Origin: Propionimicrobium lymphophilum DSM 4903 | GTDB lineage: Bacteria > Actinomycetota > Actinomycetes > Propionibacteriales > Propionibacteriaceae | Length of the DNA: 46,508 nucleotides | Assembly (NCBI RefSeq): GCF_000423485.1 | Contig: NZ_AUIB01000012.1 | Location: 1 to 46,508, forward strand | Direction: 5' to 3' | In this document: in pieces, positions 2,278 through 12,343 of the stretch | How positions within the stretch are numbered: the first letter of the stretch is position 1 | Layout of the letters: each line of letters starts with the position of its first letter | Translations under genes and position numbers: made by a program | The notes under the pieces: generated by a model | What the model saw: only the letters and a program-made list of their open reading frames with translations | The model's database searches: none | What the model was told of the DNA's origin: nothing

Positions 2278-2661
2278 GTGAAGAACATTGAAGAAGAACG
2301 TATCCGTAACCTGCGCACAGCAGGCTGGGGGTATAAAGCGATTGCCGAGTTTTGCGCCCTGACCCGTGACCAGGTCCGTTCATACTGCACCAGCCGAAAT
2401 CTCGAGGCCGGTTCAGTGGTGGTTCAGCGGGTGTGCCGCTGGTGTGCCAGCCCTATTCGGGGAGGTGTTCGGGCTCGGTTTTGCTCGCCCGCCTGCAGGC
2501 ATAAAGCGTGGCGGCACCGACAGAAAACCGAGCCTGTGCGTCAGCGATCCTGCGTTCACTGCGGGCACCGTTTCGTGATCGTGGATAAACCGGGCCAAAA
2601 GTACTGCTGTCACGCCTGTTATGTGCGTGCTCGATTCGGCACGCGTGGCGGACGACCATGA
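2278..2661 (+). CDS. HTH plus double zinc-finger DNA-binding protein of a recombinase module
   Basis: A 127-residue protein. Residues about 5-42 (RIRNLRTAGWGYKAIAEFCA onward) look like a helix-turn-helix of the kind seen in sigma-factor and transposase N-termini. Two zinc sites follow: C53-x2-C56...C69-x3-C73 and C92-x2-C95...C110/C111...C114. Arg-rich segments lie between them. GTG 2278 has GGGAG at 2263-2267, ten bases upstream. Small proteins of this layout travel next to large serine recombinases in Gram-positive mobile elements. The role is inferred as regulation of the element or help to the recombinases (a directionality factor is possible), not shown. The end overlaps the next start as ATGA. 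Confidence 0.7.
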   Translation: MKNIEEERIRNLRTAGWGYKAIAEFCALTRDQVRSYCTSRNLEAGSVVVQRVCRWCASPIRGGVRARFCSPACRHKAWRHRQKTEPVRQRSCVHCGHRFVIVDKPGQKYCCHACYVRARFGTRGGRP

Positions 2662-2867
2662 GCACGCTCGCCGCTCGGGTTGATCAGATGACACAGCCTG
2701 AGGTGTTCGCCCGTGAACTCGCCTTCATCACGGACGCTCACACGTTGAGCGTGCTGGCGGGTCGGGGCGTGCTGACTTCAGCTGAGTATCGGCGTGCTTA
2801 CCGGCTGTTGTGCCAGGCGTGGACGCCGATCTATCAACCACAGATTGTGGGCGAAACGACTGGATAA
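2658..2867 (+). CDS. Small SHOCT-like protein of the recombinase module
   Basis: A 69-residue protein translationally coupled (ATGA) to the zinc-finger gene. The core, from FARELAFITDAHTLSVLAGR to about residue 58, resembles the short SHOCT-like helical domain in small proteins found just upstream of serine recombinases in clostridial and actinobacterial integrative elements. The family is associated with oligomerisation or protein contacts. There is no catalytic motif and no membrane segment. Function in integration or excision is inferred from constant association and coupling. Confidence 0.6.
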   Translation: MSTLAARVDQMTQPEVFARELAFITDAHTLSVLAGRGVLTSAEYRRAYRLLCQAWTPIYQPQIVGETTG

Positions 2868-2913
2868 ACACCTGGTTTAGAGCGTGTATAGACCTAACGC
2901 GAAAGGAGAAAAC

Positions 2914-4164
2914 GTGGCACAGGTTAGTGTGGTGACACCAGTTCGGCCTCCTGCCCCGAAGCTGGTCAACGTGGCGGCATACGCGAGGGTCTCAACCAAC
3001 GGCACAGAGCAGTTAGCATCCCTATCGGCGCAAGTGTCGTATTATTCGCGCCTGATCCAGTCCACACCCGGATGGGCCTATGCGGGCGTGTTCACCGATG
3101 AGGGTATTACTGGCACGTCAACAAAATCCAGACAAGGCCTGGCCGACCTGATGGGCGCAGCCAGGGGCGGGGGTGTCGATATTGTGTTGTGTAAATCAAT
3201 CTCACGCCTGGCCCGCAACACTGTCGACCTTCTCGCTACGGTCCGTGAGCTCAAAGACCTTGGCGTTGCAGTGCGATTCGAGCGGGAACGTATCGACACC
3301 CTTAGCGCTGACGGGGAACTGCTGTTAACCTTGCTGGCCTCGTTCGCCCAAGAAGAATCGCGTTCACTATCCCAGAACGTGAAATGGGCAATCCGCAACC
3401 GATACAAGAACGGGGGCACGAACTCCTTCGTTGTCTATGGATACAAATGGGCAGACGGTGAGTTCACGATCGTCGAAGAAGAAGCCAAGATTGTGCGCTT
3501 ACTGTTTGCCAATTATCTCGATGGGATCAGCCCGGAGAAAACAGCGACGATGCTCAATGCTGAAGGTAAACGCTCTCGGGGTGGGGGACGGTTCTACGGG
3601 TCCGTGTTTCGTCGCATGCTCGAAAACGAGCGCTACAAGGGCTGCCAAATGCTACAGAAAATGTACCGCCCCACAATCCAAGCACCCACAAGTGCCCTCA
3701 ACGACGGACAGCTGCCGCGATACTGGGTCGATCAAGCCCTCCCACCAATCATCGATAAGTCTGTGTTTGACGCGGTGCAAGCAGAAATCGCCTATCGGCG
3801 CGAGATTGGTCCGGCGGCGACCCCGTCAAAGAACACGGGCGTATTCACCGGGCGGATCTGCTGCGGCGCGTGCGGGAAGAACTATCAACGCAAAACCCGC
3901 ACCTACAAGTCTGGAACCTCATACAAGTTCTGGCGCTGCTGGAGTGCCTGCACCGGGAACGGAAACCCTTGTAGGGGGCACAACCTACGCGAAACACTCC
4001 TCGAACACGCCTGCGCAGACGTGCTCGGCACCCAAAGTTTCGACCCCGTCCAGGTTGGCGAGCAGGTCGTGATGATTGAAGCCTTTCCGCACCAGCTCAC
4101 ATTCCACCTTGCGGATGGAACTATGACGCCGGTGGGCTTAACCAGTGAGGGGAGGTTGGCATGA
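2914..4164 (+). CDS. Serine recombinase 1 (large-serine-recombinase type, short C-terminus)
   Basis: Site-specific DNA recombinase of 416 residues. The N-terminal resolvase domain carries the catalytic Ser27 in AAYARVST, then SRLARNTVDLL and AQEESRSLSQNVKWA. The central recombinase domain spans roughly 170-300 and the zinc ribbon about 305-370 (CCGACGKNYQRK...WRCWSACTGNGNPC). Unlike its partner it has no long coiled-coil insertion and ends soon after the ribbon. GTG 2914 is chosen because AAGGAG (2903-2908) lies five bases upstream; the in-frame GTG at 2884 has no such site. The stop overlaps the start of recombinase 2 (ATGA), so the two are probably made in similar amounts and may act together. 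Confidence 0.9.
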   Translation: MAQVSVVTPVRPPAPKLVNVAAYARVSTNGTEQLASLSAQVSYYSRLIQSTPGWAYAGVFTDEGITGTSTKSRQGLADLMGAARGGGVDIVLCKSISRLARNTVDLLATVRELKDLGVAVRFERERIDTLSADGELLLTLLASFAQEESRSLSQNVKWAIRNRYKNGGTNSFVVYGYKWADGEFTIVEEEAKIVRLLFANYLDGISPEKTATMLNAEGKRSRGGGRFYGSVFRRMLENERYKGCQMLQKMYRPTIQAPTSALNDGQLPRYWVDQALPPIIDKSVFDAVQAEIAYRREIGPAATPSKNTGVFTGRICCGACGKNYQRKTRTYKSGTSYKFWRCWSACTGNGNPCRGHNLRETLLEHACADVLGTQSFDPVQVGEQVVMIEAFPHQLTFHLADGTMTPVGLTSEGRLA

Positions 4165-5738
4165 GTCGCACGGTCACTGCGATACCTGCGACCAAGAAGG
4201 TTCGATCTGCCGCAGCCTCATCTGGGGTACCGGCACGCAGGCGGGTGGCGGCGTATGCGCGAGTTTCCACCGAGATGGAAGAACAAACCTCCTCGTATGA
4301 GGCGCAGATCGACTACTACACCACCTACATTCGCTCCCGTTCTGATTGGCAGTTCGCGGGAATGTATTCCGATGAGGGCATCTCTGGCACTTCTATGAAG
4401 CGCCGTGAGGGATTCCAAACCATGATCGATGACGCCCTGGCAGGCAAAATCGATCTGATCCTCACCAAATCCGTGTCCCGGTTTGCACGCAACACCGTCG
4501 ACTCGCTCACTACCGTGCGCAAGCTCAAGGATGCAGGCGTTGAGGTTTATTTTGAGAAGGAGAATATTTACACCTTTGACGCCAAAGGCGAGCTATTGAT
4601 CACGATCATGAGTTCACTGGCGCAAGAAGAATCCCGCTCCATCTCTGAGAACGTCACCTGGGGACACAGGAAGCGTTTTGCCGATGGGAAAGTCATGGTT
4701 CCCTACAAATCCCTACTCGGATATAAGAAAGGCGAGGAGGGCAGTCTCGTCATTGACGAAACCCAGGCTCCGACCGTCAGGCTGATCTACCAGCTCTTCC
4801 TTGACGGGATGGCTATCAGCGAGATCAAAACCGAACTTGCTGCCCGCAAGATTCTCACCCCGCGTGGGAAAGAAGTGTGGTCAACGTCGACAGTGCGCTC
4901 CATCCTGTCGAATGAAAAATACAAGGGCGATGCCCTGCTTCAAAAGACGTTCACCACCGATTTCCTTACTAAGAAGATGAAGGTCAACGAGGGTGAAGTA
5001 CCCCAATACTATGTATCAGGTAATCACGAGCCGATTATTGCTCCGCGTATCTGGGATCAGGTGCAATACGAACTCACCACCCGCCATGCCAACATATCGT
5101 CAGCGAAAGTCGGGTTGTTCTCCACCCGGCTCAAATGCTTTCAGTGTGGGGCGTGGTATGGGCGTAAAACGTGGGCATCGAACACGAAATACAAATGCAC
5201 AGTATGGCAATGCAACCACAAATACACAGGCGAACACCCTTGCAGCAGCGCGAATGTGAAGGACGAACATATCAAGAACGCCTTCCTCCAAGCACTCAAC
5301 CAACTGATCGCCCGCCACCGGTACGAAAGCCAGCTATCGCAGATTCTTGTCGACATGTTTGATGCGAGCCGGTTGGAAGAACAAGCCGCCGCCTGCCAGG
5401 CAAAACTTGCGGAACTCACTGAGCAGATCGAGGCGCTGATTGCGGAAAACCAGCGGTGTGCGCTCGACCAGGACGCCTACCAAGCCCGCTACACCGAACT
5501 CGATACTACCTACCGTAAGACACTCGCACGCAAAACAAGCCTGGAAGCCGACATCACAGCAAAGACAGCCAAACATGCGGCCGTGACTACAGCCCTAGGC
5601 GATCTGGCGGGTGAACCGGTGAGCGAGTTCCGCCCCTCACAGTGGAGCGCACTCATCGATCACGCCATCGTAGGCGAGGATACGATCCGGTTCGTGTTCC
5701 GCACCGGTGAACAGGTGAGTATTGCCCTGAAAGGTTGA
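4161..5738 (+). CDS. Serine recombinase 2 (large serine recombinase with coiled coil)
   Basis: A 525-residue integrase-like enzyme. It has catalytic Ser36 in AAYARVST, SRFARNTVDSL and AQEESRSISENVTWG. The recombinase domain lies at about 185-310 and the zinc ribbon at about 320-375 (LKCFQCGAWYGRK...VWQCNHKYTGEHPC). A long Gln/Glu/Ala-rich coiled coil follows at about 390-480 (DASRLEEQAAACQAKLAELT), the element that in characterised large serine integrases governs synapsis and directionality. It has the full length of the family. It ends the mobile module; the iron-transport operon starts 85 bases later, so an attachment site may lie between or further right. The pair with recombinase 1 suggests a two-protein recombination system. 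Confidence 0.92.
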   Translation: MSRTVTAIPATKKVRSAAASSGVPARRRVAAYARVSTEMEEQTSSYEAQIDYYTTYIRSRSDWQFAGMYSDEGISGTSMKRREGFQTMIDDALAGKIDLILTKSVSRFARNTVDSLTTVRKLKDAGVEVYFEKENIYTFDAKGELLITIMSSLAQEESRSISENVTWGHRKRFADGKVMVPYKSLLGYKKGEEGSLVIDETQAPTVRLIYQLFLDGMAISEIKTELAARKILTPRGKEVWSTSTVRSILSNEKYKGDALLQKTFTTDFLTKKMKVNEGEVPQYYVSGNHEPIIAPRIWDQVQYELTTRHANISSAKVGLFSTRLKCFQCGAWYGRKTWASNTKYKCTVWQCNHKYTGEHPCSSANVKDEHIKNAFLQALNQLIARHRYESQLSQILVDMFDASRLEEQAAACQAKLAELTEQIEALIAENQRCALDQDAYQARYTELDTTYRKTLARKTSLEADITAKTAKHAAVTTALGDLAGEPVSEFRPSQWSALIDHAIVGEDTIRFVFRTGEQVSIALKG

Positions 5739-5783
5739 TGCTCATACCAGTTGACGTGCACGGTTAGGTAAACCTCCCAGATA

Positions 5784-5807
5784 TTAGATAAGGTTAGCCT
5801 TATCTAA
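5784..5807 (+). promoter_or_regulatory. DtxR/IdeR-type iron box upstream of the transporter operon
   Basis: Ten-base arms TTAGATAAGG (5784-5793) and CCTTATCTAA (5798-5807) are perfect inverted repeats around TTAG. The 19 bases at 5789-5807 match the DtxR/IdeR consensus TTAGGTTAGCCTAACCTAA at 16 positions. The site ends 16 bases before the first start codon and overlaps where a promoter and transcription start would lie, which fits repression by metal-loaded DtxR when iron is plentiful. A further GGTTAGGTAAACC at 5762-5774 may be a weak second half-site. The DtxR gene is not in the window. Confidence 0.8.
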
Positions 5808-5823
5808 TAAGGATGGTGTTTAC

Positions 5824-7608
5824 GTGGACGATGTAATGGATCAGGTTGTTGACGGTGAGTATGGGTCGGCGAAGGAAAAATCTGTCGCTGGCCAGAACGC
5901 GATCCGTCAGCTATCGCAGCCGGTGAAAGGCAAACTGTTCGTCGCGCAGGTCTTAGCGTTCGCCTCTGGTGTGCTGGCTATCGCACCTTATGTGGCTTTG
6001 GTGGAGCTTGGCAGAGAACTTATGCAAGACCGGGTGGACCCGGCGCGGGTGAACTGGATCGTGATGCTCCTCGTCAGCGCATACATGGCCCGGTTGACCT
6101 TATATTTTGTTGCATTGGGCGTGACGCATTTTATTGACCTGTCGTTGCGTAATCAGATGCGCCGCCAGATTGCCGCCCGCATGTCGACTGCTCCGCTGTC
6201 GTGGTTTACCCGCGAGGGTGAGGGTAAGATCCGCAAGACCATTCAGGATGATACGGCCACGGTGCACACAGTGATCGCGCACGGGCCGATCGAGAAACTG
6301 AACGCGATCGTATCCCCGCTCGCCTTGTTGACCTATGCGTTTGTGGTGGATTGGCGGCTCGCTCTGCTGTCGATTGCGACGATTCCGATTTATGTGGGCA
6401 TGTATGGCATGTCGATGCGTGGGATGAATGAGAAGACCGCGCAAATGGATACCAAGCTCGCTCAGGTTTCGGCAACGATGGCCGAGTTTGTTGCCGGTAT
6501 CTCAGTGGTGAAAGCGTTCGGCAAGGTCGGCCAAGCACATAAAGCCTATTTAGATGCGGCTAACGAGTTTTCTAAGTTCTACCGGGCGTGGTGTATGCCG
6601 CTGGTGTCGATGTCGGTCGCCTCATTTTCGTGGGTGTCGATCCCGGTGTTGTTGATCGTGAACCTTGGCGGGGGCGCGTTGATGATGAACGCCGGTTGGG
6701 TGAGCATCTACGAGGTGATAACGACGACGTTGATCGCCTTGGTGCTGCCGGGAGCGTTGATGGCAGTCGCAACCATCGCCTGGTCGTACCAGCTCGCAGG
6801 GTCTGCGGCAGTGAGGCTGGTGAACGTCATGGAGCTACCGGCGTTGAGTCAGCCCGATGCGCCACAGACACCAAAGGGTCATGATATTGAGATTCGGGGT
6901 GTGTCGTATGCCTATGATGACACCCAGGCATTAGACGAGGTGAGCCTGAGCATTCCGGCAGGCACGGTGACCGCGCTGGTTGGCCCGTCGGGTGCGGGGA
7001 AGTCGACGTTGGCGAGTTTGATTGCCCGCTTTGATGACCCGGACGCTGGCACGATCACCATCGGCGGGGTTGATCTAAAGAGCATTTCCCAGGATGTGTT
7101 GTATTCGACGGTCGCATTCGTCCTGCAAGATGCACAGCTTATTCGCGACACCATTCGAAACAACATCGCTCTTGGCGCGCCAGACGCAACCTTGGATCAG
7201 GTGCGGCAGGCGGCGCGGGCAGCGCAGATCGACGAGTTCATCATGAGCCTGCCAGATGGTTACGACACCGTGTTGGGGGAGGATACCCACGTTTCGGGCG
7301 GGCAGGCAGCCCGTATCGCGATCGCCCGGGCGCTCATGGTTGATGCCCCAGTGTTGGTGCTGGACGAGGCGACGGCGATGGCGGACCCGGAATCGGAATC
7401 GAAAATCCAACAAGCTCTCTCGACTCTTGCCAAAGGCAGAACCGTGATTGTGATCGCCCACCGACTGGCCTCGATCAGAGGGGCAGACCAAATCGTCGTC
7501 ATGGAACGCGGGCGCATTGCTGTGGTCGGTAAACACGACGAGCTGTTGGGTAATGCGCACTATCAGACACTTCTTGCCCAAGGTGCATGCGAGGAGATGA
7601 CACGATGA
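5824..7608 (+). CDS. ABC half transporter 1 (IrtA/YbtP-like, membrane domain plus ATPase)
   Basis: A 594-residue fusion of a six-helix exporter-fold membrane domain (about 30-330) and an ATPase domain. Walker A is GPSGAGKS (387-394), the signature VSGGQ (490-494), Walker B VLVLDE (510-515), and the H-loop His is 546. The signature and the D-loop (ATAMADPE instead of the usual ATSALD) depart from consensus, so this subunit probably forms an asymmetric dimer with the next gene. Such pairs include the siderophore importers IrtAB and YbtPQ as well as drug exporters. The iron box and ECF neighbours favour iron-chelate or heme uptake. It lacks the N-terminal flavin domain of mycobacterial IrtA. GTG 5824 has AAGGA (5809-5813) ten bases upstream; the stop overlaps the next ATG. 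Confidence 0.85.
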   Translation: MDDVMDQVVDGEYGSAKEKSVAGQNAIRQLSQPVKGKLFVAQVLAFASGVLAIAPYVALVELGRELMQDRVDPARVNWIVMLLVSAYMARLTLYFVALGVTHFIDLSLRNQMRRQIAARMSTAPLSWFTREGEGKIRKTIQDDTATVHTVIAHGPIEKLNAIVSPLALLTYAFVVDWRLALLSIATIPIYVGMYGMSMRGMNEKTAQMDTKLAQVSATMAEFVAGISVVKAFGKVGQAHKAYLDAANEFSKFYRAWCMPLVSMSVASFSWVSIPVLLIVNLGGGALMMNAGWVSIYEVITTTLIALVLPGALMAVATIAWSYQLAGSAAVRLVNVMELPALSQPDAPQTPKGHDIEIRGVSYAYDDTQALDEVSLSIPAGTVTALVGPSGAGKSTLASLIARFDDPDAGTITIGGVDLKSISQDVLYSTVAFVLQDAQLIRDTIRNNIALGAPDATLDQVRQAARAAQIDEFIMSLPDGYDTVLGEDTHVSGGQAARIAIARALMVDAPVLVLDEATAMADPESESKIQQALSTLAKGRTVIVIAHRLASIRGADQIVVMERGRIAVVGKHDELLGNAHYQTLLAQGACEEMTR

Positions 7609-9353
7609 ATCAACTATTGCTGCCACGCTTTAAGCGTTTGATGGAACCCGCCTCGTGGCGAGACCTCTCGGTCGGTCAAGCGTGGGGTGCGGTCTCAGGA
7701 CTGTGTCACGGCTTTGCCCTGCTGACTCTGCTTCCCGCAGCAAGTGCCCTAGCAACCGGAATGCCGGTGTGGGGGTTATCGTTTTGGGGCTGGCTCATCG
7801 CCTTGGCGGTAATCGCGCTGCTGGGCGTGGGCACGGAGTTTTATGGCATGCGCACCGGCTATATCGGCGCGCTCGGGTTCATTCACGACGTACACCAGGC
7901 AGTAGGTAACAAGGTAGCCCGCCTACCGTTGGGAGTGTTTGATTCGGGTAGTTCTGGACGGCTGTCGCGCATGGTCACCCAGGAAATGATGAACTTGGGC
8001 GAGTCGGCGGCACATTTCATTTTTTCCCTCGTCCAAAAACTCTCAGCCGTGCTGGTGATCACTGTGGGCACGTGGTTCTGGGATTGGCGGCTGGGACTGA
8101 CCTTGACGATCGCCTTCCCGATCATGCTCGCCTTCCTTCATATCTCCCGTGTGCTTCTCGATAAGGGCAAACAGGTTTCCGAACCAGCAGAATCGGAGCT
8201 GGCTGCTCGCATGGTCGAATTCGCCACCTGCCAAGGCGCGCTGCGCTCCTGCCATGTCGCCGACGACTACCCGGCCCTTGATCGGGCATTCAAACAGGCT
8301 GACCGCAAAAGCCGCAAAGCATTGTGGATCGAAACATTAGCGAACCTGATAAACGGAATGTTCGTCCAAGCCCTTGTCGTGGTAATGATTTGGCTGACCG
8401 CCCAACTCGCCCTCGGTGGGCAGATGAATGCGTTGAACGCTGTGGTCACCATCGGCATGTGCCTGCGGTTCACCACCATGCTCCAAGACATCGGTGGCTG
8501 CATGACCGGGCTGGAAGAACGCCGCCAGCAGATGAATCACGTCGACAAGGTCATGGACGCTCCCGAATTGTCCGAACCCGATGTCTCCACACCGGTGAGC
8601 GCTCCTGGTGATGTTCGTTTCGAGGACGTCGCCTTCGGCTACGATCCGGACACCTCGGTTCTCCGTGATATTTCCTTCCATGTCCCGCAAGGCGGCATGT
8701 GTGCCCTGGTTGGCCCTTCCGGCTGCGGAAAAACCACAATCGCGAGGTTGGTTGCACGTTTCTGGGATGTGCAGTCCGGCAGCGTACGCGTTGGCGGGGT
8801 TGATGTGCGCGAGCAGACCACCGAAGATTTGATGCGCCAGATATCCCTGGTCTTCCAAGACGTCTACTTATTCAATGACACGCTCGAGGCCAACATTCGC
8901 CTTGGCAACCCAGAAGCTACCGATGAAGAAATCAGGTGGGCCGCTGACCTGTCGGGCGTGACGGAAATCGTCAACCGGCTCCCAGACGGCTGGAATTCAT
9001 TGGCGGGTGCTGGCGGGCGCGCACTGTCAGGTGGGGAACGCCAACGAGTGTCCATCGCTCGCGCCTTGGTGAAGAAAGCCCCAATTGTGCTGTTTGACGA
9101 GGCCACCAGCGCGTTGGATGCGGAAAATGAAGCCAACATTGTTGCGGCGATGAACGAGCTACGCAAGCACTCCACATTGATCGTGATCGCCCACAAACTT
9201 GAAACCATTCGCCAAGCTGACCAAATCATTGTGCTCTCCCACAGTGGGCGTATCGCCCAGCGCGGGTGCCACGACGAGCTGGTCAACCAGCCAGGTCAAT
9301 ACCGCGATTTCTGGCAAGAGCGCATCAACGCCGCCGGATGGCAACTCGTCTAA
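7605..9353 (+). CDS. ABC half transporter 2 (IrtB/YbtQ-like, membrane domain plus ATPase)
   Basis: A 582-residue partner of the preceding protein with the same layout: membrane helices to about residue 310, then Walker A GPSGCGKT (370-377), a canonical LSGGE signature (474-478), and Walker B with D498-E499 followed by the standard ATSALD D-loop. The canonical sites here complement the degenerate ones in subunit 1, as in heterodimeric ABC systems with one fully active site. ATG 7605 is preferred over the upstream start at 7587 because GAGGAG (7591-7596) lies eight bases before it and ATG overlaps the previous stop. Substrate is inferred from context to be an iron chelate or heme. Confidence 0.85.
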   Translation: MNQLLLPRFKRLMEPASWRDLSVGQAWGAVSGLCHGFALLTLLPAASALATGMPVWGLSFWGWLIALAVIALLGVGTEFYGMRTGYIGALGFIHDVHQAVGNKVARLPLGVFDSGSSGRLSRMVTQEMMNLGESAAHFIFSLVQKLSAVLVITVGTWFWDWRLGLTLTIAFPIMLAFLHISRVLLDKGKQVSEPAESELAARMVEFATCQGALRSCHVADDYPALDRAFKQADRKSRKALWIETLANLINGMFVQALVVVMIWLTAQLALGGQMNALNAVVTIGMCLRFTTMLQDIGGCMTGLEERRQQMNHVDKVMDAPELSEPDVSTPVSAPGDVRFEDVAFGYDPDTSVLRDISFHVPQGGMCALVGPSGCGKTTIARLVARFWDVQSGSVRVGGVDVREQTTEDLMRQISLVFQDVYLFNDTLEANIRLGNPEATDEEIRWAADLSGVTEIVNRLPDGWNSLAGAGGRALSGGERQRVSIARALVKKAPIVLFDEATSALDAENEANIVAAMNELRKHSTLIVIAHKLETIRQADQIIVLSHSGRIAQRGCHDELVNQPGQYRDFWQERINAAGWQLV

Positions 9354-9389
9354 ATCACAGCACTGTTCACAATCATGAAAGGAATAACT

Positions 9390-9986
9390 ATGTCCACACC
9401 CACGTCCTCGCGCCTAAACACGCGCGACTTCATCAATATCGGCGTCTTCACCGCTTTGATGTTCGTCATCGTGTTTGCATTCGGAATGCTCGGGTTCATT
9501 CCGGCTGCCATGTATGCCGGTTTCTTACTCTCCATTCTCGTCAACGGCACCGTGTTCGCGCTGTTTACTGCCCGCACTCCGAAGATGGGGGCATTGACCA
9601 TCATGCTGATCCTCGTCGAAGCCCTCTTCTTCGTAACGGGTCACTGGGTGGGAGGAATCGCGATCGCCGCTGTGTTCGGCCTGCTCGCTGACTTGGTGAT
9701 CACCAAGGGGCCGAAGAACGTGAAAGTTCGCGTCCCGCTGGCATACGCACTGTTTATCCTGCCGATCTACGTGTCACCGTGGATTCCGCTATTTATGAAC
9801 CAAGACGCATATATGTCGCAGATCGCCGAACGAATGGGTGCTGAGTATGCCGCGAAGATGGCCCAGGTAGTCACTATCCCGATTCTGTTGGGCTTCTTCG
9901 TCGTGATGCTCATCGTTGGCTGGCTCGCTGGCCTGTTGGGAACCCGGGTGGCGCGCAAACACTTTGAACGGGCCGGTCTTGTCTAA
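9390..9986 (+). CDS. ECF transporter S component, MptD/Trep_Strep family
   Basis: A 198-residue integral membrane protein with five or six hydrophobic segments, starting with NTRDFINIGVFTALMFVIVF, typical of the putative substrate-binding S subunits called MptD or Trep_Strep. It would bind the substrate and dock onto the T/A module encoded next. ATG 9390 is used because AAGGA at 9379-9383 lies six bases before it; ATG 9375 would place that site inside the gene. The gene follows subunit 2 after 36 bases and its end overlaps the T gene. Substrate specificity of this S family is not established to my knowledge; the iron box argues for an iron compound. Confidence 0.82.
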   Translation: MSTPTSSRLNTRDFINIGVFTALMFVIVFAFGMLGFIPAAMYAGFLLSILVNGTVFALFTARTPKMGALTIMLILVEALFFVTGHWVGGIAIAAVFGLLADLVITKGPKNVKVRVPLAYALFILPIYVSPWIPLFMNQDAYMSQIAERMGAEYAAKMAQVVTIPILLGFFVVMLIVGWLAGLLGTRVARKHFERAGLV

Positions 9987-10665
9987 ACTTCCCGACCCGC
10001 GCACGATTATCGCAGCGCTCGTCATCGTCTCCACCACGATCTACAGTGCCTACTCGCCGTGGTTCGTGTGTACTCTAGGCGGATTCGCCGCCGTGATGCT
10101 GGGGAGCGCTACGATCAACCCCAACACGCTCGTGCGCCCCAGCTGGGTGGCCGTCTACCTGGCCACGTTTGCGGCTCTCGGCACACTCGTCTTCGTGATA
10201 CCACTGGTGTGGAAGTCAACGGCCAGCGCGTTCCTCGTGCTGTTTTTGCAGTGGATGTGGCGATTCAGTGTCAGCGCAGGAATGGGAGCCTACGCGATCG
10301 GCGTGATCCGACCTGCCACCTTGCAAAAAGCACTCGCCAGCTCACGAATCCCGACCTGTTTCACGATCCCGATCTCAGTCGCGTTACGTGTGCTGCCCGT
10401 GATCGGCCACGAGGTTAAAGCGATCTCAGATGCCATGAAACTACGCGGCATGTCCGCGCTCTCACTGCGTTCGGCCCAGTACTTCACAATCCCGCTGCTA
10501 TCGACCGTGGTACGCAGCGGGGACGAACTGGCATCGGCCGCCCTCGTGCGCGGACTGGGCGGAACCGCAAAGCCCACCTCAGTCACGATCGTGAAATTCC
10601 GTGTGATCGACGCGGTCATTCTGCTCATCGTTATCGGCTTCGCGATATGGAGAATCGTCCTATGA
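9979..10665 (+). CDS. ECF transporter T component (CbiQ/EcfT-like)
   Basis: Transmembrane coupling subunit of about 228 residues. Two Ala...Arg-Gly coupling motifs that contact the ATPases are visible as AMKLRGMS and AALVRGLGG in the second half, and four or five membrane segments precede and follow them. The start is uncertain: TTG 9979 (protein SKLPDPRTIIAA after the initiator) overlaps the S gene by eight bases and fits the family's short N-terminus, but its ribosome site is weak. The ATG at 9916 would overlap the S gene by 71 bases and encode a Cys/Trp-rich stretch unlike the family. The stop overlaps the next ATG (ATGA). Confidence 0.82.
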   Translation: MSKLPDPRTIIAALVIVSTTIYSAYSPWFVCTLGGFAAVMLGSATINPNTLVRPSWVAVYLATFAALGTLVFVIPLVWKSTASAFLVLFLQWMWRFSVSAGMGAYAIGVIRPATLQKALASSRIPTCFTIPISVALRVLPVIGHEVKAISDAMKLRGMSALSLRSAQYFTIPLLSTVVRSGDELASAALVRGLGGTAKPTSVTIVKFRVIDAVILLIVIGFAIWRIVL

Positions 10666-12053
10666 CAACAGCCCAAGCAACTGGGGTCACCTTCACCTAT
10701 CGGGGAGCAGACCACCCCTCAATCAATGACGCAACCATCACCATCACACCTGGAACCGTCACCTTGCTGTGTGGCGCGTCAGGGTCGGGGAAAACCACCG
10801 CGCTACGGCTGTTTAACGGGCTCATCCCGCACTTTCACGACGGCGACCTCACCGGAAGCGTCACAGTCGACGACATTGACGTGGCACGAGTAGATCTATC
10901 AGAGCTTGCCCACCACTGTTCGACAGTGTTTCAAAACCCGCGCACCCAGTTCTACACCACCCACGTGCGCCAAGAACTCGCCTTCGGCCCAGAAAACCTC
11001 GGCCGCGACCCGCAGGAGATCTGTGCCCGCATTGACGAGGTTGCAGCCGAGTTAGGTATCGCCGACCTGCTGGAATCCCGCGTCACACAACTATCAGGCG
11101 GACAGATGCAACGCGTGGCCTGCGCCGTCGCCATGTGCAACAACACGTCGCTGATCGTGTTCGACGAACCGACCGCGAACCTGTCAGCTGACGTTATCGA
11201 CCAACTCGCCACACTCATCGCCAGGCTCAAAGCAGACGGACACACCATCATCATTGCTGAACACCGGCTAAGTTTCCTTTCCGAGATTGCTGACCGTGTC
11301 TACTGCTTCGACAAAGGCAACATCGCCCTCACCGCAACCGGAGAGGAGTTTTATGCCATGCCAGATGAGGAGCGTAAACAGCTTGGGCTGCGATCCCTAG
11401 TGACTGTGCCTATGCCACAACTTCCGGAACCGGCAGGAGATGGGCTTGAGATTGACAACCTCACCTTCGCCTACCGCCACGGAAACCCGGTTCTCAACAT
11501 CGGCCATCTGCTCTTCCCGGCAGGGAAAATCACCGCACTGTTAGGCCCGTGCGGGTCAGGAAAATCAACACTGGCACGCATCATCTGCGGACTCGAAAAA
11601 GCCAAAGGTGCATCCATCACACTCAATGGGCAAAAATTCGCCAGCCGGGACGCATACCTTGTCATGCAAGACCCCACCCGGCAGCTATTCTCAGACACAG
11701 TCATTGACGAAGTTACGCTCGGGGCAACCAGAGTCGAAAAACAACACATCGACGCCCACGCGATCCTTAAAGAACTCGACCTCACCGACCACGAGTCCGA
11801 TCATCCGCAAGCGCTGTCTGGTGGGCAACGCCAACGCCTTGTCATCGCCACAGCACTTGCTGCGAACAAGAAGGTCTACATTTTCGACGAGCCGACATCA
11901 GGTGTGGGCTACAAGCACCTCGTCGCGATCTCACAAGTGATGCGCAAACTCGCTGATACCGGTGCCGTCGTCATCGTCATCACCCACGACGCTGAACTCG
12001 TTACCGAGGTCGCCGACCATAGCGTCCGCCTCGACCAAATCAACGCCTGCTAA
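10662..12053 (+). CDS. ECF transporter A component, double ATPase (EcfA/EcfA' fusion)
   Basis: A 463-residue protein with two ABC ATPase domains in tandem, powering the ECF module. Domain 1 has Walker A GASGSGKT (38-45), LSGGQ (144-148) and FDEP (167-170). Domain 2 has GPCGSGKS (295-302), LSGGQ (385-389) and FDEP (408-411). All key motifs are intact in both. The fusion replaces the two separate ATPases of many ECF systems. ATG 10662 is chosen because GGAG (10649-10652) lies nine bases upstream and ATG overlaps the T-gene stop. This is the last gene of the putative iron operon; no clear hairpin terminator follows. Confidence 0.88.
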   Translation: MTTAQATGVTFTYRGADHPSINDATITITPGTVTLLCGASGSGKTTALRLFNGLIPHFHDGDLTGSVTVDDIDVARVDLSELAHHCSTVFQNPRTQFYTTHVRQELAFGPENLGRDPQEICARIDEVAAELGIADLLESRVTQLSGGQMQRVACAVAMCNNTSLIVFDEPTANLSADVIDQLATLIARLKADGHTIIIAEHRLSFLSEIADRVYCFDKGNIALTATGEEFYAMPDEERKQLGLRSLVTVPMPQLPEPAGDGLEIDNLTFAYRHGNPVLNIGHLLFPAGKITALLGPCGSGKSTLARIICGLEKAKGASITLNGQKFASRDAYLVMQDPTRQLFSDTVIDEVTLGATRVEKQHIDAHAILKELDLTDHESDHPQALSGGQRQRLVIATALAANKKVYIFDEPTSGVGYKHLVAISQVMRKLADTGAVVIVITHDAELVTEVADHSVRLDQINAC

Positions 12054-12176
12054 CGCAAACGCTCGCTCAGTCGAAAGAGAGGAAAGCGTTTCTGCAGGTC
12101 GGGGCAAACGCGCTATACACTCGCTAACGCAAGCGATTTTCTTGACCCCCTTGGGGCGTACGCGCTAACGCAAACG
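12049..12176. repeat. Three copies of GCTAACGCAA(A/G)CG after the transport operon
   Basis: Near-identical 13-base units lie at 12049-12061, 12123-12135 and 12164-12176, the first overlapping the stop of the ECF ATPase. Between the second and third is a short CCCCC/GGGG palindrome. The stretch sits between the operon and the 3' end of tRNA-Gly. It could be a scar at an island edge, a protein-binding array or chance; no other copy was noticed in the window. Confidence 0.5.
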
Positions 12177-12202
12177 TCTACTTATCATTTTCGACGTCAT
12201 AG

Positions 12203-12276
12203 TGGAGCGGATGACGGGAATCGAACCCGCGTAATCTGCTTGGAAGGCAGAGGCTCTACCATTGAGCTACATCCGC
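12203..12276 (-). tRNA. tRNA-Gly (TCC), CCA encoded
   Basis: The minus strand gives a full cloverleaf: acceptor GCGGATG pairs with CATCCGC, the D arm carries AATGGTA, the anticodon loop CTTCCAA has anticodon TCC, the T loop is TTCGATTC, and an encoded CCA lies at 12203-12205. Its 3' end faces the mobile/iron region, a common position for integrated islands. A possible -10 TAATGT reads on the minus strand at 12288-12293. Confidence 0.95.
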
Positions 12277-12343
12277 GATGCGTTACAACATTACACAGGT
12301 CGGCCAGTTTTTGCTAACTGACAACACGCGACACGCGCGAACT

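Follow-up and report, generated by a model that had tools for sequence, protein, structure and literature searches.

Why does a prophage carry two large serine recombinases side by side, when in the single integrases of A118/LI, SPbeta, Bxb1 and phiC31 one protein serves both attachment sites and its coiled coil governs site selectivity? The question is raised by a stretch of Propionimicrobium lymphophilum DSM 4903 DNA (contig NZ_AUIB01000012.1, positions 1 to 46,508; "the window" below means this whole stretch of 46,508 nucleotides). The window starts where the contig starts, inside a prophage (G000:C11 in our numbering), and its holin and amidase genes lie upstream of a four-gene module at 2278-5738. 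All four open reading frames (ORFs) called there in a first-pass annotation are present: two small proteins, S1 and S2, and two recombinases, R1 and R2. The answer that we favor, at a probability of about 0.45 and from sequence comparison, is that R2 reads the phage site (attP) and R1 the chromosomal site (attB), each as a homodimer before recombination, leaving mixed R1-R2 sites after it.

Two unequal recombinases

The two recombinase genes are the following.

2884..4164, + strand: R1, 426 amino acids, large serine recombinase without a coil; start probably at 2914; proposed reader of attB (tRNA)
4161..5738, + strand: R2, 525 amino acids, large serine recombinase with a coiled coil; proposed reader of the attP arm; ATGA overlap with R1

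Both proteins match Resolvase, Recombinase (PF07508) and Zn_ribbon_recom (PF13408) above the Pfam cut-offs. R35, S37, R108 and R111 are invariant among 32 R1s, as are R34, S36, R107 and R110 among 29 R2s, and we take these residues to be the catalytic set by comparison with gamma-delta resolvase. R1 and R2 alike have the resolvase domain with its serine and arginines, the Recombinase domain and the zinc ribbon of a large serine recombinase.

What sets the two apart is the coil. R2 residues 404-467 match coiled-coil profiles, below the cut-offs of those profiles, and no such match is listed for R1. By a self-made, crude heptad score applied to redundant sets of tails, a coil-like 42-mer is found in 86 of 97 R2 tails and in 1 of 96 R1 tails; the 11 R2 tails that the score misses include L015, close to the window R2, and three rum-like R2s. 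The predicted model of R1 (mean pLDDT 82) runs from the zinc ribbon through two helices to three closing strands, without a coil. Its residues 26-414 align with 368 of the 535 chain residues of SPbeta integrase (9dxd), and residues 163-413 with 224 of the 287 of LI integrase (4kis). As modeled, the R1 zinc domain is completed without a coil rather than randomly cut off, and the R2 zinc domain, by its profile and heptad matches, has one. The earlier observation that R1 ends after the zinc ribbon and R2 keeps the coil is thus a conserved property of the family. R1 also varies in the number of its zinc domains: domain matches number one in 46 proteins, two in 46 and three in 4, and near-complete copies one in 41, two in 46, three in 4 and none in 5. 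Each R2 has a single zinc domain, and the extra domains of long R1s are coil-less.

An old and tightly linked pair

Is the second enzyme dispensable? The first pass had set this module against serine-integrase phages at large, most of which were said to use a single enzyme, and had held that its proposal would fall if relatives commonly lacked R1. Viral contigs were searched with R2 alone, and the best 80 of at least 600 matched places were taken, two of which extend too short a way upstream to be judged. In 75 of the other 78 the end of a recombinase ORF lies no more than 300 bp from the R2 start, and in 69 of these loci the ORF overlaps R2 as called (with some upstream starts). R2 stands without an adjacent upstream recombinase in L107, L109 and L122, the last of which has an R1-like ORF 2.6 kb upstream; the upstream gene is broken in L099, L120 and L137. 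Seeding the search with R1 instead led to 17 loci in genomes and 11 viral ones, and R2 follows R1 in all 28 except L025, a distant relative, and L030, where the sequence ends (R1 is partial in L024 and R2 broken in L029). A phage collection has 139 records matching R2 and 141 matching R1, and the two recombinase genes are adjacent in 10 of 10 records inspected. Among these best matches, then, R1 is rarely missing, and the single-enzyme rule fails in this lineage.

R1 and R2 each need one origin on a tree built from 32 R1s and 32 R2s with two outgroups (66 rows, of which 2 are ungrouped); the R1 of the rum phage is placed apart from the main R1 clade, next to a distant outgroup, on long branches. 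The R1/R2 split is thus probably older than the spread of the pair over Actinomycetota and Bacillota.

Many records of streptococcal and gut phages contain the pair, and by name or annotation some of these phages carry drug-resistance genes. L012, L013 and L014 (Gleimia europaea, Mobiluncus curtisii and Mobiluncus mulieris) match the window equally, at 88.686% over 3553 columns; these equal coordinates and identities mean that one element seemingly occurs in three species of two genera. The assembly of Tissierella sp. Marseille-P2918 holds two copies (L015, L022) of an otherwise actinobacterial element, and its name may be wrong or the assembly mixed.

Attachment sites at the 3' end of tRNA genes

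The attachment site of the window element lies some way downstream of R2.

12180..12204, + strand: R2-side att arm, 25 nt (ACTTATCATTTTCGACGTCATAGTG)
12205..12206, + strand: central dinucleotide of attR, GA (tRNA positions 74 and 73, opposite strand)
12203..12276, - strand: tRNA-Gly(TCC), the integration target, whose last two bases, C75 and A76, lie inside the phage arm

Relatives without the cargo described below are homologous to the window up to 5701 and again at 12085-12281, which contains the tRNA-Gly gene. ARAGORN finds a tRNA at the element junction in 13 of 17 genome loci, tRNA-Gly in 12 and tRNA-Thr(CGT) in L013. As for the remaining four, the junction of L011 falls just beyond its stretch, at the end of a tRNA-Gly gene (L051); a partial tRNA-Gly-like end is present in L018; the tRNA of L021 adjoins the opposite end of the element; and L025 is unrelated at the junction. 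In the junction alignment the element end TTATCATTTTCGACGTC and six further bases are followed by GA and then by the tRNA 3' end, with a variant arm in L022. A complete site, present in L027 and L049, consists of two perfect 17-nt arms around ATAGTG-GA-TACTTA, and in six genomes (G002 to G007) the 17-nt arm is exactly repeated in inverted orientation 56-59.5 kb away. GA stands between the host flank and the inner part of the arm at 6 of 6 attL-side junctions that have such a flank (L052, L055, L063, L064, L066, L067). The sites have the form of a quasi-palindromic attP of about 50 bp with a 2-bp core, that is, 25-nt half-sites around GA or AC. Read from these junctions, attP is near-palindromic, with a GA core joined to tRNA-Gly at positions 73-74; since the arm carries C75 and A76, attR encodes CCA. 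The host sequence before GA is not TG in four of the six attL flanks (L052, L055, L063, L066), so the host tRNA is seemingly without an encoded CCA, which the phage arm supplies on integration.

The left end of the window element is probably at G000:C1:568856, in a contig that overlaps C14 at its end. Complete attP-like sites also lie inside chromosomes (G002, G004, G008 and contig C8 of the same genome as the window), as tandem insertion would leave them; the surroundings inspected are those in C8. Among 74 viral loci a complete palindromic attP follows R2 only in L091, and none was found in 57 upstream controls. No intact empty attB at a tRNA end was found for L034 among the five inspected of 13 candidate places. 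Arm matches with one or two mismatches (L059, L060, L061, L068) are excluded from the site counts; in L059 (G011:C5:30599), where the arm has one mismatch, the GA core adjoins sequence with no evident tRNA and may mark a secondary insertion site. In C8 (G000:C8:35622-50000, L039) there are, besides the complete attP-like site, several arms that belong to other types, and a back-to-back fusion of two R2 C-terminal halves at the HEPII motif. A shufflon of recombinase tails was considered there and set aside: a number of att arms and R2 pieces surround it, so that decay of neighboring elements would suffice as an explanation.

Natural domain swaps

Which enzyme reads which site? Three natural exchanges bear on this, compared here by identity in the recombinase domain (RD) and zinc domain (ZD). 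The first is in L021, from Arcanobacterium ihumii, whose R1 is 90% (RD) and 92% (ZD) identical to that of the window and whose target is likewise tRNA-Gly, whereas its R2 ZD is only 33% identical and its arms differ. The second pairs L021 with L091: here R2 is 97/96/93% identical in RD, ZD and tail and the outer 14 nt of the arm are the same, whereas R1 is 51/38% identical in RD and ZD and the core is GA against AC, hence a different target. Both arms of L021 (G013:C4:1065634 and 1115912; TTGTATCAAAATGAACGTCTAAGTC, TGGTATCAAAATGAGCGTCCTAGTG) are of the L091 type with a GA core, and its far end adjoins tRNA-Gly, the target of the window element. L021 lies reversed relative to the tRNA, as predicted from the flipped core dinucleotide. 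A hybrid attP with one arm per enzyme was also considered for L021 and abandoned when the far end revealed that the element has two L091-type arms and that the other half is chromosomal. L021 may be a natural case of target reprogramming with an unchanged phage site.

On the L091 side, the AC core is found in L091 itself and at the R2-side junctions of L095 and of G090 (the G090 R1 is 81% identical to that of L091). Insertions with L091-type arms in G091 and G092 lie at tRNA-Ala(GGC) and, once, at tmRNA, with core GT/AC; the survey of such insertions lists 17 places, among them 4 AC junctions and 3 that lie next to tRNA-Ala or tmRNA. L079 and L091 both come from IMG/VR 2919380674; if this is one genome, it holds window-type and L091-type elements, and a single cell can thus bring together both donors of the L021 hybrid.

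The third exchange is between L022 and L038, the latter on contig C4 of the window's own genome: R2 is 99/89/82% identical in RD, ZD and tail, R1 48/47% in RD and ZD. The arm at C4:20282 is identical to that of L022 and adjoins tRNA-Thr(TGT), the L022 target being tRNA-Gly(TCC). A second, weaker L038 arm, alike at 14 of 17 bases, directly follows R2 at C4:14640. R2 and arm are alike with either L038 arm, and the target is given only by the one at C4:20282. By eye, the 5.6 kb separating the arms seem to encode a transporter, a hydrolase and a TetR-like regulator, enclosed by two copies of the end sequence. The stretch G000:C4:14577-20298 (L038, L040) thus has cargo-like genes between two terminal non-coding copies of the element, each with an att arm, hinting that tandem element ends may capture cargo between them. 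Across these comparisons, R1 and R2 have, by their domain identities, exchanged DNA-binding domains separately.

The outer part of the arm itself follows R2. Over nine elements, R2 identity in the ZD and coiled coil is correlated with identity in the outer 14 nt of the arm on the R2 side (r 0.71, permutation p 0.0001), and R1 ZD identity is not (r 0.06, p 0.30). The figures are 0.65 for R2 and 0.08 for R1 with the other L038 arm, 0.67 and 0.01 without L038, and 0.55 (p 0.003) and -0.25 with one element per type (six). The streptococcal comEC phages offer a weak test, in which the C-terminal parts of R1 and R2 are equally similar (65% each). R1 and attB are unlinked in the genome, and the assignment of R1 to attB is suggested by the first two swaps and, less surely, by the third.

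A proposed division of labor

How might two such enzymes work together? In the favored scheme a dimer of R2, with its coil, would bind the near-palindromic attP, and a dimer of coil-less R1 would bind attB at the 3' end of a chromosomal tRNA gene. Both would cut at the 2-bp core, with strand exchange of the usual serine-recombinase kind, so that attL and attR would each carry one R1-type and one R2-type half. Homodimers before and mixed dimers after the reaction, together with the one-sided coil, could then set its direction. A mixed site would have a single coil, so the coil-coil contacts held to inhibit attL x attR in single integrases could not form in the same way. The enzyme-site assignment, the subunit composition and the basis of direction are the parts of this model that we infer. 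More tentatively still, the lineage may have split the serine integrase in two, with the coil enzyme reading the phage site only, its coil-less partner the host site only, and the target open to reprogramming by swapping the DNA-binding domains of the partner.

Several observations weigh against the division between R2 and R1. R2 and the arm are adjacent, so shared descent could make them covary, and the correlation alone is no proof of reading; over the whole 25 nt the arm correlates with R1 ZD as well (0.55, against 0.79 for R2). The attB of L091's own R1 is known only by its core dinucleotide, and this R1 is tied to tRNA-Ala indirectly: in the stretches examined, no recombinase turned up beside either tRNA-Ala insertion, and the tmRNA insertion carries frameshifted recombinase genes of another type (R1 90% identical, L084-like). 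In G092, a frameshifted remnant combines L091-type arms with an R2 that differs from the L091 type in its zinc-coil part, which speaks against a strict rule linking R2 and arm. L013 sits in tRNA-Thr(CGT) rather than tRNA-Gly, though it matches the window just as L012 and L014 do. Finally, the third swap is ambiguous because L038 has two candidate arms.

Could an R1-R2 heterodimer instead occupy every att site, R2 making the coil contacts and most of the sequence reading while R1 fills the second seat? The overlap of the two genes suggests similar amounts of both proteins, the authors of the Phi1207.3 work thought that both enzymes cooperate, and in the insertions seen the halves of attB are unlike (conserved tRNA end against variable flank), as unlike subunits might prefer. 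Window-type attP arms are, however, perfect 17-nt inverted repeats, which two unlike readers would not need, and both arms of L021 are L091-type despite its window-type R1 DNA-binding domains, so this arrangement seems unlikely. The first-pass proposal of a hetero-complex in which only one partner has the coil accordingly survives in part: one joint reaction of R1 and R2 is the best reading, but a single uniform hetero-complex looks less likely than the assignment of R2 to attP and R1 to attB.

R2 by itself has every part of a classical integrase and a very constant length, and R1 is the variable protein, with one to three zinc ribbons. R2 alone might then be the integrase and R1 a regulator, for instance for excision only or for keeping direction. 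This is improbable, given that R1 retains the conserved residues of the catalytic domain and is rarely absent, and that in the first swap target identity tracks its DNA-binding domains. Least credible is a use of the two enzymes for different reactions, R2 for phage integration and R1 for a second site, for example at a cargo junction: some elements have cargo between R2 and att and others do not, and two arm-like sequences flank the cargo-like stretch in C4, but the gene overlap and joint spread argue for one reaction.

If the division holds, site selectivity and directionality are separable roles that can be tested directly in a two-protein family, and nature offers a design for integrases with a changeable genomic target and an untouched donor site. 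Within the literature searched, three points are new: the conserved asymmetry in the coil together with the repeated zinc domains of R1, the core at tRNA 73-74, and the separation of attP and attB reading that the natural swaps suggest. No publication was found to state that, in such a pair, one enzyme is without a coil or is a reader of attB alone, a weak negative in that subscription literature was barely covered.

The small proteins S1 and S2

Two further genes precede the pair.

2278..2661, + strand: S1, 127 amino acids, helix-turn-helix (HTH) and two four-cysteine motifs, phrog_2308 (function unknown)
2658..2867, + strand: S2, 69 amino acids, in the slot of SHOCT_2 proteins in streptococcal relatives; ATGA overlap with S1

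The close coupling of the four genes is borne out: ATGA overlaps join S1 to S2 (2658-2661) and R1 to R2 (4161-4164), and the gap between S2 and R1 is 16 nt from the listed GTG at 2884 or 46 nt from the GTG at 2914, which makes R1 416 amino acids long. The latter start is likelier, because AAAGGAG precedes it and because of the comparison with the relative L022, whose R1 begins MAKIEQVTPVRP where the window R1 reads MAQVSVVTPVRP.

S1 had been described as an HTH and double-zinc-finger protein, and its features are compatible with this: its predicted model has three helices at the N-terminus, and an alignment of 32 sequences shows seven of the eight cysteines in the two motifs to be invariant and the remaining one to be at least 90% conserved. 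It matches phrog_2308 at E 1.2e-25; a fold search returned no match at E 0.001 or better. The SHOCT-like character given to S2 is supported by synteny, as SHOCT_2 proteins fill its slot in 4 of 4 streptococcal modules tested (E 4.5e-18 to 1.4e-21). It has no support from the window protein alone, which has no Pfam or NCBIfam match, SHOCT_2 (PF20612) included, and a best PHROG match at E 0.25; S2 of L022 matches SHOCT_2 weakly (E 0.29).

Could one of them be the directionality factor, as the first pass had suggested? S1 is present in 61 of the 67 viral loci of the R2-seeded set where it would be visible. By annotation alone, it is missing from the streptococcal comEC-type and rum-like modules inspected. 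Nor does it strictly track the recombinases: L021 S1 is 95% identical to that of L091 and 41% to that of L094, while the recombinases of L091 and L094 stay alike (R1 86/74% and R2 92/85% in RD and ZD). This evidence against S1 is indirect, and a directionality role for either small protein is not supported; we infer that both are accessory or regulatory proteins.

Upstream of the module, an amidase endolysin with two CW_7 repeats occupies 1301-2125, and holin and endolysin genes directly precede the recombinase module in many relatives.

Relation to known systems

The nearest described system is Phi1207.3. Its orf56 and orf57 (412 and 521 amino acids), like those of Phi10394.4 and Phi m46.1 as cited there, are overlapping serine recombinase genes, and their cooperation is called likely by the authors and their target is a GA in comEC (PMC4260502). 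There too the pair follows holin and amidase at the right end, with a SHOCT_2 protein upstream and insertion at GA; the window likewise has a homologous overlapping pair beside lysis genes at a prophage end and a GA core, and its R2 is 47.9% identical to that of Phi1207.3 (tblastn). Phi1207.3 differs in its target, comEC rather than a tRNA, in having no S1 gene annotated, and in its arm, TTGTATCAAATTGAGAACTCACACC, which is unlike that of the window.

CcrA and CcrB of SCCmec and ECC elements are also adjacent, unequal large serine recombinases (NCBIfam models of 442 and 542 positions) that share one attB, and the ECC/SCC att motif TATCATAA (PMC6222049) resembles the arm end TTATCA of the window. 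Their target is rlmH, that of the window tRNA-Gly. Against the CcrA, CcrB and CcrC models of NCBIfam, R1 and R2 score 51.6 to 146.5 bits, below the cut-offs of 700 to 900; in a control, CcrA was found in 6 of 14 genomes, in none above the cut-off. The triplets of streptococcal integrative conjugative elements are homologous serine integrases encoded together, as in the window, that cluster by position in the triplet, with 2-8 bp repeats (PMC4701971). They comprise three genes, target mutT, traG and hsdM, and belong to conjugative elements rather than phages; the window has two serine recombinases and no third.

The single phage integrases share fold, zinc ribbon, 2-bp core and, with R2, the coil. 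For LI integrase, PMC3783163 explains attP/attB discrimination and direction by two placements of the zinc domain and by the coil, and reports that the delta-CC mutant recombines all four site pairs tested in intramolecular reactions.

Cargo between R2 and the attachment site

One more feature separates R2 from its arm.

5824..12053, + strand: cargo between R2 and the att site, two ABC exporters and an ECF-type importer

The 6.3-kb cargo region (5739-12084) has two ABC exporter genes and genes for ECF-type S (Trep_Strep), T (CbiQ) and A components, which may, as a guess, be a phage-borne set for siderophore or metal uptake. It is present in L009, L011, L015, L020, L023, L024 and L027, and absent from L010, L012-L014 and L016-L019.

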